Source of the DNA: a bacterium
GTDB lineage: Bacteria; Armatimonadota; UBA5829
Reading direction: 5' to 3'
Length of the DNA stretch: 40,254 nucleotides
Assembly (NCBI GenBank): GCA_021373255.1
Contig: JAJFTD010000026.1
Span: 1-40,254, forward strand
Below the pieces are notes generated by a model. The model worked only from the letters and a program-made list of their open reading frames with translations. It ran no database searches and was not told the origin of the DNA. The translations under genes and the position numbers were made by a program. Below, one piece after another: positions 27,384-31,493 of this stretch (the stretch's first letter is position 1; each line of letters opens with the position of its first letter).

Positions 27384-28922
27384 CTATACACCCGCTATAT
27401 TTGACACCGCTGTGAAGTCACCCTTAAGAGAAGAGTAAAGAGACCGATACACTTGATAGTATTTATCATATGTTAATTTAGCTTGAGAGTTCGACCGGGT
27501 AGTTTTGACAACCTTAATGACCGACTTGCACGCTTCCTCCACACTGCCGTATATGCCCGTACCCACACCAGCCAGCAGAGCCACACCCAGAGCCGGGCCT
27601 TCGTCAATATTGATGGTGACGTGGTCATAGCCAATTATGTCAGCTTGAATCTGCCGCCATATATCACTTTTCGCGCCGCCGCCGGAAGCACGAACTTGCT
27701 TGATCGGCACGTTCATTCCCTCAAGAATACTGAAGGAGTCTCTGAGGCCGTAGGCTACTCCCTCGAGCACGGCACGTGTGAAGTGTGCCTTGTCGCTGCG
27801 GAGTGTAATGCCGAAGAATGCGCCGCGGGCGTTGGGGTCAGGGTATGGGGTGCGCTCGCCCGTGAGGTAGGGAAGGAATATCAAACCCTCGCAACCGGCA
27901 GGCGCCTTGGCGGCTTCCTGGTTCAGCACTTCGTAGGTATCCACTCCCAGTGCTTTTGCCACGGAGTACTCGGCATCGGCGAATGTGTCTCGATACCATC
28001 TCAAGCTGCCACCCGCGGAGAGCATTACGCCCATCACATGCCACTTACCAGGGACTGCGTGGCAGAATGTGTGCACGCGCAGATCGGGGTCTACCACGGG
28101 TTGATCAGCAAACGCGAATACCACTCCAGAAGTCCCGACTGTGCTGGATATTATACCCGGCTCGACTATACCGTTGCCGACCGCGCCTGCTGCCTGGTCA
28201 CCACCTCCACCGACCACAGGAGTTCCCACAGCCAAGCCGGTAAGAGCAGCAGCTTCGGCGCTAATGCGTCCGCTGACCTCAGGGCTCTCATAAACTCTCG
28301 GCATCCAGTCGCGCGGAATGTCTATAGCATCCAGCATCTCCCATGCCCAGTCACGCTTGATCACGTTAAATAACGCAGTGCCACTAGCATCGGAGACCTC
28401 TGTGGCGAACTCACCAGTGAGGCGGAAGCGGACATAATCCTTAGGCAATAGAACCTTGCGGACCTGCTTGTAAGCCTGGGGTTCATGGTTGCGAAGCCAT
28501 ATGATCTTGGGGGCAGTAAAACCCGTGAGGACGGGATTGGAGATAAGCTGGACGACATTGTCTCGTCCAACAGTGCTCATTATCCAATCACACTCCGCCT
28601 GTGTGCGCTGATCACACCAGAGAATGGCTGGGCGTATGACCTGGCTATCGGCATCGAGAAAGACAGAACCATGCATCTGACCAGACAAGCCGATGCCCTT
28701 AATGTGTTTAGGATCAATGCCGGAGGTCTGGATCAGTTCACGCACTGCCGCAACCGACGCCTGCCACCAATCCTCAGGCTCCTGTTCAGCCCACAATGGC
28801 TTGGGGGTATATAGTGGATAGGTCTTGGTGCAAGAACCGACCACCTCCCCACCCTTGCTTGCATTTATCAACAGCGCCTTGGTACCGCTGGTCCCTAAGT
28901 CGATGCCCAATAAGTAATTCAT
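27384..28922 (-). CDS. xylB: Xylulokinase
   Basis: A 512-residue FGGY-family sugar kinase that phosphorylates D-xylulose to xylulose 5-phosphate for the pentose phosphate pathway. Seen: LLGIDLGTSGTKALLIN at the N-terminus (phosphate binding), LWAEQEPEDWWQA, GIGLSGQMHGSVFLD, LWCDQRT, then GGGDQAAGAVGNGIV in the middle and RASGGGAKSDIWRQIQADI near the C-terminus. The MHG and CDQR segments favour xylulose among FGGY substrates. Length is usual. No xylA or transporter genes are next to it, so substrate choice rests on sequence alone. A promoter candidate is at 28957-28985. Confidence 0.93.
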   Translation of the reverse strand: MNYLLGIDLGTSGTKALLINASKGGEVVGSCTKTYPLYTPKPLWAEQEPEDWWQASVAAVRELIQTSGIDPKHIKGIGLSGQMHGSVFLDADSQVIRPAILWCDQRTQAECDWIMSTVGRDNVVQLISNPVLTGFTAPKIIWLRNHEPQAYKQVRKVLLPKDYVRFRLTGEFATEVSDASGTALFNVIKRDWAWEMLDAIDIPRDWMPRVYESPEVSGRISAEAAALTGLAVGTPVVGGGGDQAAGAVGNGIVEPGIISSTVGTSGVVFAFADQPVVDPDLRVHTFCHAVPGKWHVMGVMLSAGGSLRWYRDTFADAEYSVAKALGVDTYEVLNQEAAKAPAGCEGLIFLPYLTGERTPYPDPNARGAFFGITLRSDKAHFTRAVLEGVAYGLRDSFSILEGMNVPIKQVRASGGGAKSDIWRQIQADIIGYDHVTINIDEGPALGVALLAGVGTGIYGSVEEACKSVIKVVKTTRSNSQAKLTYDKYYQVYRSLYSSLKGDFTAVSNIAGV

Positions 28923-28956
28923 AATGCTTCCTCCGCACGGATCGTGTTCGGTTTAT

Positions 28957-28985
28957 AGGATACTGAAATCAAGCGGGGAAGTCAA
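28957..28985 (-). promoter_or_regulatory. Promoter of xylB
   Basis: TTGACT (28980-28985, minus strand), a 17-base spacer, TATCCT (28957-28962). The transcript would start near 28950, about 28 bases before the ATG at 28922. No operator-like palindrome is obvious. Confidence 0.6.
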
Positions 28986-29046
28986 AGATTGCAATGGGCT
29001 ACCAGAGCGAAAGGTCACTAATATCTCAACGTCGAATAGGTAATAC

Positions 29047-30507
29047 ATGAGGATCTTTAGTGTCAGATTCGTGATTTCACTGAGTCTACTAGCAAGCGCA
29101 TGTGCTTGCTTTGGCGATGGTGTGCGTGTATTCGAAAAAGATGTCGCCCAGCTCAAGCATCCTTTTTATGCTGAGGTGATATTTCGAGCAGAACACAAGG
29201 GGCGGCAATCGTTGAGCAATCGGACTCTGATATGGTATCGAAGTCCCGAGTGTTATCGGCTGGAATTGGTCGATTGGCCATGTGATGATCTGCGCACATA
29301 CTTTGTCCGGTCTGGCAACTGCGTATTCTCCACTATAGCCAAACGAGACATGCACAATGAGCCCAAGTGGGAAGCTACCCCGGCATTCTGGTCGGATGAG
29401 AATATGCTGAGCAGTATCTTGCAACCGACTTGGCGTTTGCAAGATACTGCTCTTGTAGGGCTAGAGCAGGTGCACAGTGTCTCCACTGAGCACTGGCACA
29501 ACCACTCAACGGGCATGCACTCCACAACCGAGAGAACAGTCGACGTTTGGCTAAGCATTAACCGTCAATTTCCCCTGGTGATGAAAGCTCAAACGCATGG
29601 TCCAAACTCCAGTATGCATTGGGAAATCACACAACTCCACATAGATGAGTCAATCCCCGGCAAAATGTTCACTGCCCAGGTCCATCCTGCGAATGGACTC
29701 TCTTCCCAGCTCAAAATGCAGTATAAGCCCCTTTGGATGATCTTGTTGTGGTATGTTCTTCTGCTATCGGTATACACATGGATGATATTTGCGCTGGCAA
29801 TGCCGAAACTTGGGCGAATGCGAGTATTGCATATTGTCGGCTCGGCAGTCGGGATGTTGGTAATGCTTTGGGTTACACCTAACCTGAACGCATATCAGAA
29901 CCGCATATCAGGCTTGCCGGTGCTCCTCCTTATGGCACTGATGCTGGTCGTCACGCTTCTGTTTTGCTGGCGCAAGATCGGAATGCCGGGGGAGATCAAG
30001 TTATTTGCCGGAACCCGGTGGCCAGTAATAGCAGCGGCGCTAATAGCGGCAGGGGCAGCATTCCTATTTTTTGGTGCACGAGGGCAGGCAGTTGCCACAA
30101 AAATCTATGGGCCATCTGGCTGGCATATAACATTCTTACCACAAACTCTAGCCACCGTGCTAGTCTATGCAGCTACGTGGGCTGCACTAGAGGAAGTAGT
30201 TTTTCGTGGTTATGTGACTGGCGTGCTAAGCCGAAGATTTAGCGCTCTTTGGTTGGTCAACATACTTCAAGCGATCGCGTTTAGTGTCGAGCACATACCC
30301 AAGTATTTGAGAGAGCCTACGTCCAACTCAATATTGCTCTGCAACCTTGCATTCATGTTTGCATTCGGGTTGGTATTCGGTGGGCTCCGTCTGAGATATC
30401 GCAATCTCGGCGCTCCCTGGCTGGTCCATACGGCATATAATGTCGGGGCTTTCTATGCATTGCACGCCAACACTTTTGCCACGCTTGCTGCACTTAAGAG
30501 CATGTAG
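29047..30507 (+). CDS. Secreted domain fused to CPBP intramembrane protease
   Basis: A 486-residue protein in two parts. Residues 1-24 look like a signal peptide (VISLSLLASACACFGDG). Residues 25-225 form a beta-rich periplasmic domain (RTLIWYRSPECYRLELVDW; VDVWLSINRQFPLVMK) resembling LolA/outer-membrane lipoprotein-sorting proteins in strand pattern. From about residue 227 on there are seven or eight membrane helices with the CPBP (Abi, CAAX-protease-like) signature: EEVVFRG (Glu382/383, Arg387), FSVEH (His416) and HTAYN (His461, Asn465), all four motif positions present, so it is likely an active metalloprotease. CPBP members process prenylated proteins or bacteriocins in some lineages. The combination is unusual. 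The gene stands alone, convergent with the HEPN gene. Confidence 0.8.
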   Translation: MRIFSVRFVISLSLLASACACFGDGVRVFEKDVAQLKHPFYAEVIFRAEHKGRQSLSNRTLIWYRSPECYRLELVDWPCDDLRTYFVRSGNCVFSTIAKRDMHNEPKWEATPAFWSDENMLSSILQPTWRLQDTALVGLEQVHSVSTEHWHNHSTGMHSTTERTVDVWLSINRQFPLVMKAQTHGPNSSMHWEITQLHIDESIPGKMFTAQVHPANGLSSQLKMQYKPLWMILLWYVLLLSVYTWMIFALAMPKLGRMRVLHIVGSAVGMLVMLWVTPNLNAYQNRISGLPVLLLMALMLVVTLLFCWRKIGMPGEIKLFAGTRWPVIAAALIAAGAAFLFFGARGQAVATKIYGPSGWHITFLPQTLATVLVYAATWAALEEVVFRGYVTGVLSRRFSALWLVNILQAIAFSVEHIPKYLREPTSNSILLCNLAFMFAFGLVFGGLRLRYRNLGAPWLVHTAYNVGAFYALHANTFATLAALKSM

Positions 30508-30543
30508 TATGCATCTGTTATTATCACATGGATGCGCCACAGA

Positions 30544-30921
30544 CTAATACAACGCCGTCTTGATCCAGTCCACTATTGTCTGCGCGCAGCGGAGGTGCAG
30601 GCGGGCGGATTTGCGGTCGTAGTTTTGTGCGGGGACGCCTGATACGGCTTCGGGGCTGCGGGTTGCGAGAAATTCAGGGTTAAGCTCCGCAGCGGAGTTC
30701 ATTACTTCCAGGGGAGCTTCCAGTTCGTTACACATCTGGATCAGGTTATGACCACGGGGTATCTTCTGTTTCTGCTGGATGGTGGCAGCACGAAGAGCCT
30801 GCTCGGCAGCTTGTTGTGCAAAGAAGACGCTGGCAAAATATACTCCGGCGTCAAGCAGCGTCACCGCCGCGGCATAGTTAGCCCGTGCCTGCGACCAGCA
30901 AGCCTCGGACATTTTTCTCAT
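30544..30921 (-). CDS. HEPN domain protein without a visible partner
   Basis: About 125 residues of all-helical HEPN fold (pfam HEPN group): SEACWSQARANYAAAVTLLDAGVYFASVFFAQQAAEQALRAATIQQKQKIPRGHNLIQMC, then DRKSARLHLRCAQTIVDWIKTAL. Such proteins usually pair with a MNT-type nucleotidyltransferase as a toxin-antitoxin or regulatory pair; none is adjacent here. The typical RNase motif RX4-6H is not clear, although RGHNL keeps the conserved His. I start at the ATG at 30921 because the longer frame (to 30999) is not typical of the family; the ribosome site is weak, so the true start may be the ATG nine bases further in. Confidence 0.75.
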   Translation of the reverse strand: MRKMSEACWSQARANYAAAVTLLDAGVYFASVFFAQQAAEQALRAATIQQKQKIPRGHNLIQMCNELEAPLEVMNSAAELNPEFLATRSPEAVSGVPAQNYDRKSARLHLRCAQTIVDWIKTALY

Positions 30922-31129
30922 ACCAGTTCCGCCTTCACGCTCCAAATCCGCTTTACCCCGTTTCAGTCTTATTTGTATAATGCGAGTCTGCAAACACAAT
31001 CTGATACCCTTACTAGCCGTATATTCAACGCAGCAACAAAACTACCTTTCAGTCTTTTTATGAGACGAAGCGGCTAAAGCATTATTACGTGGTTTATTGA
31101 TTCTATGTAATACTAATACGATTGCTTGT

Positions 31130-31158
31130 TTGTCTGGTGAGCGCAGATGTTGTATAAT
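31130..31158 (+). promoter_or_regulatory. Promoter of the FmdB-type gene
   Basis: TTGTCT (31130-31135), 17-base spacer, perfect TATAAT (31153-31158). It gives a leader of about 75 bases before the ATG at 31242. The rest of the 240-base spacer after the HEPN gene shows nothing else recognisable. Confidence 0.65.
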
Positions 31159-31241
31159 TGAGCTTGTTAGTGAGCTTTATTGGCGACAAGATGCCGCGAT
31201 TCCACTGTCCCTAACAGGACGGTTTATTAAGAGGTAATGTT

Positions 31242-31493
31242 ATGCCCACGTATGTGTATAGGTGCAGAGATTGTGGACACGAGTTTGAGAAGGTCCAGAG
31301 AATGAGCGACAACCCGCTCACCCAGTGCCCCAAGTGCAAGGGAAAGATCGGCAGAGTACCTTGCGCTGTCGGGATCACATTCAAAGGTTCAGGCTTCCAC
31401 GTGAACGATTATCCAAGTTCCAAATCAGCTACGGCAGCCCCGGCAAAGAAAGAAGAAACCAAAGCCGGAACCGCAGCAACGTCCGCAAGCTGA
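31242..31493 (+). CDS. FmdB family zinc-ribbon protein
   Basis: An 83-residue protein of the FmdB/CxxC-CxxC putative regulator type: PTYVYRCRDCGHEFEKVQRM with Cys8 and Cys11, then TQCPKCKGKIGRV with Cys29 and Cys32 forming the zinc ribbon, followed by the family segment GITFKGSGFHVNDY. The C-terminal tail is low complexity Ala/Lys/Thr (AAPAKKEETKAGTAATSA). Function is not established; members often lie near tetrahydrofolate or stress genes. AGAGG precedes the ATG by six bases. It forms a single-gene unit with its own promoter and terminator. Confidence 0.9.
   Translation: MPTYVYRCRDCGHEFEKVQRMSDNPLTQCPKCKGKIGRVPCAVGITFKGSGFHVNDYPSSKSATAAPAKKEETKAGTAATSAS

Follow-up and report, generated by a model that had tools for sequence, protein, structure and literature searches.

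Proteases of the CPBP or type II CAAX family (PF02517, Rce1-like; MmRce1 and MrtX are examples) are multi-helix membrane proteins whose core carries the motifs EExxxR, FxxxH, and HxxxN. Among them, the myxosortases MrtX, MrtJ, and MrtS process envelope proteins. MrtX sorts cell-surface proteins of Myxococcus and cleaves MYXO-CTERM proteins, for which lipidation of a cysteine is proposed (PMC11980579).

A second group of related systems is formed by the N-terminal domain of RseB/MucB and the LolA_like family (PF03888 and PF17131). MucB binds lipid A, upon which the anti-sigma factor MucA is released and proteolyzed (PMC7400510).

No described family with a LolA/RseB-like plus CPBP layout was found in the literature searched, as the initial annotation of the present locus had supposed. 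The literature search also returned no paper on Armatimonadota CAAX proteases and none on LolA fused to a zinc-finger anti-sigma factor. The gene described here is located in an Armatimonadota genome, within a window of 40,254 nucleotides (the whole stretch of DNA that was analyzed). Its product quite probably combines a LolA/RseB-like domain and a CPBP protease in one protein, as judged from sequence. The features are listed in Table 1.

Table 1. Positions of the fusion gene, its parts and the inserted stretch in the window
Feature	Residues	Window coordinates	Strand	Evidence
Whole fusion gene (486 aa), coding for a signal-peptide-like start, a probable LolA/RseB-like exported domain, and a predicted CPBP protease	1-486	29047..30507	+	Continuous ORF; PF02517
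Signal-peptide-like segment	1-22	29047..29112	+	Hydropathy peak 3-21; translation
Probable LolA/RseB-superfamily domain	about 39-213	29161..29685	+	Profile matches; HHalign
First transmembrane helix	about 228-250	29728..29796	+	Hydropathy; L002 alignment
CPBP / Rce1-like catalytic core	367-466	30145..30444	+	PF02517 E 7.8e-15
EExxxR motif: E382, E383, R387	382-387	30190..30207	+	Sequence; L002 alignment
FxxxH motif: F412, H416	412-416	30280..30294	+	Sequence; L002 alignment
HxxxN motif: H461, N465	461-465	30427..30441	+	Sequence; L002 alignment
Inserted stretch; G004, of the same genus, has 23 bp in its place (between xylB and HEPN)		28987..30559	.	blastn; gene order

The protease half

The fusion gene begins with an ATG codon and consists of one uninterrupted frame of 486 codons. 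The C-terminal half of its product is, by sequence, a CPBP (Rce1-like) protease with all three motifs, in agreement with the initial annotation. The PF02517 score is 55.4 bits, compared with a curated Pfam cut-off of 22.4. A pairwise alignment shows EExxxR, FxxxH, and HxxxN to be invariant between the fusion protein and L002. L002, in G011, is the top CPBP match outside the window's own genome when the full protein was searched against the 291 genomes of the phylum. The fusion protein differs from the known CPBP family in an exported domain, roughly 200 residues long, that precedes its first membrane helix.

NCBIfam gave only sub-threshold matches for the fusion protein, to myxosortase-type and ABC-permease/CPBP models. 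The scores for MrtJ, MrtS, and Mrt_core are 32.2, 25.5, and 25.0 bits, all below their respective cut-offs of 75, 130, and 100 bits. These weak matches would suit a substrate-capture enzyme. Its exported domain would hold on to a lipidated protein or a lipid and hand it over to the CPBP active site, where it would be matured or sorted, as by a myxosortase equipped with a LolA-like holder. MrtX, which cleaves proteins with a proposed cysteine lipid (PMC11980579), would be a precedent, as would the remotely CPBP-like LnsB, which is needed for lipoprotein N-acylation in Staphylococcus (PMC7387801). However, the Mrt scores lie far under the cut-offs, setting the fusion protein apart from the myxosortases, and LnsB is reported to lack the conserved catalytic residues that the fusion protein possesses. 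The nearest relatives found for the exported domain also belong to anti-sigma-like proteins, as described below. Substrate capture is considered unlikely.

Membrane topology

Hydropathy was calculated with a plain Kyte-Doolittle window rather than a dedicated topology predictor. The peak of the signal-peptide-like segment and the first membrane peak are separated by about 200 residues without a hydropathy peak. Seven membrane peaks follow at about residues 232-250, 260-278, 289-307, 326-344, 361-386, 399-417, and 429-447. We infer an eighth membrane helix around the HxxxN motif. Judged by eye against the lipobox pattern, C19 (LLASAC) could be a lipobox cysteine.

By simple calculation, the successive loops contain 3, 1, 2, 2, 3, and 2 lysine and arginine residues. 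These charges mildly favor a location of the N-terminal domain outside, as far as loop composition indicates. The window additionally holds flagellar L-ring and P-ring genes and a sub-threshold match to an OMP barrel, which fit a two-membrane cell.

Direct searches with the exported domain

Residues 1-230 match no Pfam family up to E 10, and hence neither LolA (PF03548) nor LolA_like (PF17131). The exported domain has no NCBIfam match, and a comparison with PDB sequences gave nothing meaningful, with two erythropoietin entries at E 0.34. The N-terminal (PF03888) and C-terminal (PF17188) domains of RseB/MucB were both unmatched in the fusion protein at E up to 1 in Pfam. The first membrane helix follows at about residue 228. 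AlphaFold models from the single sequence have a mean pLDDT of 43.8 over the full length and 33.2 over residues 21-228, too poor for fold comparison. These models are unusable, and support for a LolA-like soluble part comes from profile comparison.

Profile relationship to the LolA/RseB superfamily

When the domain was compared by phmmer with 1140 ORFs of the fetched loci, the best non-self match was L087 (E 0.015). L087 belongs to the zf-HC2 proteins and matches LolA_like below threshold; L090 has the same layout. Both were originally fetched for PF17131 matches in long frames. Profile A1, composed of these two rows, matches 46 of the 291 phylum genomes at E 0.01 and finds nothing in the window's own genome at that threshold. 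A rebuilt twin of A1 scores 12.0 bits against the domain (E 0.023), with a shuffle maximum of 7.8.

Profiles were iterated from the L087/L090 seed with the query left out and with an inclusion E of 0.01 for 4000 sequences. Six such profiles score 19.8, 15.7, 13.7, 15.2, 13.9, and 13.5 bits against the domain in HMMER (E 9.9e-5 to 0.01), and give E 0.0015 to 0.11 against the whole fusion protein. For each of the six, the domain score was reached by none of 2000 shuffles, 1454 to 1569 of which got any score, and by none of 84 decoys, which are fragments of the window. The match is one collinear stretch from iteration 3 on. HHalign with the single domain sequence yields a probability of 11% for the first profile, 34% for the second, and 78% for the fourth. 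Its scores are 30.3 for the second profile and 35.7 for the fourth, compared with maxima of 22.1 and 20.6 among 200 shuffles and of 19.2 and 19.3 among 53 decoys. L087 was picked by its similarity to the query near the start of the domain and is not independent there; the rest of the domain was therefore tested alone. With three profiles this remainder scores 11.2, 7.6, and 10.9 bits; of 2000 shuffles, none attains the first or the third value and two attain the second.

Profiles with other seeds behave differently. Four profiles seeded from PF17131-fetched loci (L022, L024, L055, and L057) give no signal, and 126 to 579 of 1000 shuffles score at least as high as the domain. At iteration 1, when it contains no zf-HC2 protein, the profile seeded from the RseB-type L024 scores -1.1 bits, a value equaled or exceeded by 416 of 1000 shuffles. 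After zf-HC2 proteins joined, the scores are 5.2, 8.9, 9.7, and 7.7 bits (E 3.9 to 0.17), reached by 3, 0, 0, and 0 of 1000 shuffles. HHalign probabilities with the first, second, and fifth L024-seeded profiles are 2.7, 3.0, and 29.4%. The silence of the PF17131-only and RseB-only profiles indicates that the signal of the domain runs through the zf-HC2 anti-sigma-like subgroup. Because of this dependence, "RseB-like sensor" appears to fit the exported domain better than "LolA carrier".

Could the N-terminal part be some other exported domain, matched to the LolA/RseB profiles by coincidence? Such a coincidence would explain the lack of a direct Pfam or NCBIfam match, the failure of profiles built from PF17131-fetched or RseB-type proteins only, and HHalign probabilities of just 11 to 78%, depending on the profile. 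It would also sit well with the unusable single-sequence AlphaFold models and with the first selection of the key relative, L087, by query similarity. Yet the scores exceed every shuffle and decoy in both HMMER and HHalign, the part of the domain not used for picking stands out too, and the match is collinear. A chance match is quite improbable. The exported domain is likely a member of the LolA/LolB/RseB superfamily, judging from profile comparison with shuffles and decoys, so the exported domain of about 200 residues and of lipid- or lipoprotein-binding type that the initial annotation had proposed is probably present.

The exported domain thus resembles RseB/MucB and LolA_like proteins in being apparently exported and in a profile relationship via intermediate proteins. 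In contrast to them, it is missed by the Pfam models, lacks a detectable RseB C-terminal domain, and has a protease attached.

Intermediate proteins

The intermediate proteins are represented by alignment A4, 15 members chosen out of 36 rows. Searched against the PDB, A4 finds 22 distinct sequences with E values of 1 or less, the best being 3.2e-6. The matches comprise LolA-superfamily proteins, LolA, MucB (E 0.0015), RseB (weakly, at E 0.05), and two chains that simply bear the name "uncharacterized". In Pfam, LolA_like is matched by 8 of the 15 members, DUF2092 by 7, MucB_RseB by 3, LolA by 3, and DUF6612 by 1. The A4 matches arise partly by construction, as several members were fetched with PF17131. 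In the L087/L090-seeded profiles, PF17131-fetched members account for 2 of 36 at iteration 1 and 55 of 101 at iteration 4.

Three proteins of the same phylum carry zf-HC2 and a LolA/RseB-like domain together: L087, L090, and L100, the last assigned via its 51% identity to L090. Each of them may be an anti-sigma factor with a built-in RseB-like sensor. These are the nearest relatives found of the exported domain, but their partner is a zinc-finger domain, whereas that of the fusion protein is a protease.

LolA-like matches in multi-domain proteins of the phylum are mostly below the Pfam cut-off. One is in an ECF sigma factor (L088:1319-3376, minus strand; Sigma70_r2 and r4) whose frame contains a sub-threshold LolA_like stretch (PF17131 E 2.4e-4). 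Another pairing of LolA-like and peptidase-type domains occurs at L085:859-2355 (plus strand), where a LolA_like stretch (29.4 bits, cut-off 30) accompanies a C39-family peptidase domain. A beta-lactamase-family protein (PF00144; L089:3-2513, plus strand) has a C-terminal sub-threshold LolA_like stretch.

Distribution of the fusion

A search with the full protein found no full-length relative at E 0.01 in 290 other Armatimonadota genomes. Three of 101 relatives match, the window's own genome included. Across the phylum, 11 of 291 genomes match at E up to 0.01, again including the window's own, where the second match is a CPBP paralogue. The ten non-self genomes have one match each. Seven of these matches lie in CPBP-like ORFs (G002, G011, G043, G048, G121, G178, and G268), a call made by eye and with a purpose-built CPBP model for which several of the seven were seeds. 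The match in G045 covers 59 residues of an ORF that, by eye, does not resemble a CPBP protease. In G158 and G143, short stretches in ORFs of 82 and 91 aa overlap the N-terminal part and are taken as chance. L002, from the same-family genome G011, is a 255-aa frame that aligns over the whole membrane part and starts at about the first helix, without the exported domain. L006 has a score similar to that of L002 but covers only residues 375-484.

The N-terminal part alone, searched in 28 class genomes, found the window's own genome and one 34-residue match (E 0.046) in a frame with a stop, taken as chance. Outside the phylum, the searches of contig collections were short near-exact peptide scans: viral_contigs gave 2 pattern matches and genome_contigs 16, none confirmed. 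With alignment A3, genome_contigs gave 71 pattern matches, of which the one confirmed was the G011 locus again (L128; CPBP part only). No match was found in plasmids, searched with the N-terminal part, or in phages, searched at full length.

A PF02517 scan of the phylum is positive in 283 of 291 genomes; it lists best matches only, so diverged fusions may remain. The window's genome has five PF02517 matches. PF17131 is matched seven times there when E values up to 0.1 are admitted, once with a score over the cut-off, and two of these proteins (L021 and L024) are RseB-type by Pfam. Both parts were found in one ORF in none of 38 CPBP ORFs and none of 89 LolA/RseB ORFs (86 after collapsing repeats) among 1626 ORFs of the fetched loci, query excluded; the purpose-built CPBP model used here was seeded in part with the query itself and overlooks weak family members such as L019. 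Seven LolA/RseB ORFs fetched later likewise do not contain both parts.

Of the 66 class-level PF02517 matches, 30 were fetched. Among these 30, 11 long CPBP ORFs, with L015 as one of them, are 469-562 aa in length and have a common N-terminal part that differs from that of the fusion. Three other long CPBP ORFs (L043, L044, and L045; 494-513 aa) do not match the N-terminal part of L015.

The initial annotation had named absence of the fusion from all relatives as evidence against its reading. The absence from the 290 other Armatimonadota genomes argues against a conserved family within the searched data.

Genomic locus

The fusion gene lies between xylB (xylulokinase) and a HEPN gene. Both neighbors are on the opposite strand, so the fusion gene has no operon partner. 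In a blastn comparison of window positions 28601-31300 with L162 from G004, DNA similarity breaks off after 28986 and picks up again at 30560. In G004, xylB and the HEPN gene are adjacent and the fusion gene is absent. G007 and G011 have roughly 1.1 kb separating xylB from the HEPN gene, and this interval carries another gene, of uroporphyrinogen decarboxylase type by eye. The 15 flanks fetched contain no relative of the fusion gene and no LolA/RseB-like ORF. Gain in the lineage of the window seems more likely than loss, with the gene seen in one genome only.

The HEPN gene itself (window 30544-30999) is 77-94% identical in six relatives. Its position varies: beside xylB in G004, G007, and G011, and near FmdB or CuAO-type genes in G001, G002, and G005.

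A frameshift or an assembly fusion is rejected, as the reading frame runs through without a break, the two flanking genes adjoin in G004 too, and the GC content by codon position looks coding. The GC content of the fusion gene is 0.501, compared with 0.524 for the window, and is the second lowest among 16 window genes measured.

The low GC content, the empty site in G004, the 255-aa CPBP relative without the domain, the lack of a second copy among 291 genomes, and the lack of ORFs with both parts (0 of 38 CPBP; 0 of 89 plus 7 LolA/RseB) would all be expected if two parts with little joint function had been joined in this lineage and the protease worked like standalone CPBP proteins. On the other hand, the long frame is intact and, in this single sequence, has kept a signal peptide and all protease motifs. 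Lineage-specific joining with little joint function is regarded as rather doubtful.

Possible function

Tentatively, and at somewhat less than even confidence, the protein may be a lipid- or lipoprotein-responsive sensor that gates the attached intramembrane glutamic protease. The single-polypeptide sensor-protease would sit in the inner membrane, and its exported LolA/RseB-like domain would bind an acyl-chain ligand, for example a mislocalized lipoprotein or a lipid. The state of the domain would control the CPBP glutamic protease, to which it is joined by the first membrane helix, and the protease would then cut a membrane-embedded substrate. We infer the gating and, by analogy with LolA, RseB, and MucB, the ligand class.

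The occurrence in the phylum of similar domains with zf-HC2 and with an ECF sigma factor, together with the MucB precedent, favors a sensor joined to a protease. Confidence in both the architecture and the gating is tempered by the failure of profile A1 to find the window's own genome and by the failure of the pure RseB profile. Against a joint function, the fusion was found in only one of the genomes searched, which leaves no conservation argument, and has no operon partner. The initial annotation had suggested that the protein senses or receives a lipidated substrate: by analogy only, sensing gains from the zf-HC2 anti-sigma-like nearest relatives, and the receiving of lipoproteins does not.

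A more specific version of the sensor-protease reading is a one-protein sigmaE-type envelope alarm, in which an RseB-like sensor of lipids or lipoproteins would be coupled without intermediates to the intramembrane glutamic protease. This version is rather unlikely. If true, it would combine sensing and intramembrane cleavage without a separate sensor, site-1 protease, and site-2 protease.

To our knowledge, the ligands that regulate CPBP proteases are largely unknown. The rarity of the fusion limits its general importance, and this unusual architecture, found once, is best seen as an intriguing candidate for a sensor-protease, short of an established system. If a CPBP protease is naturally fused to a domain that senses lipids or lipoproteins, this would point to a ligand class and open the gating of intramembrane glutamic proteases to direct tests.
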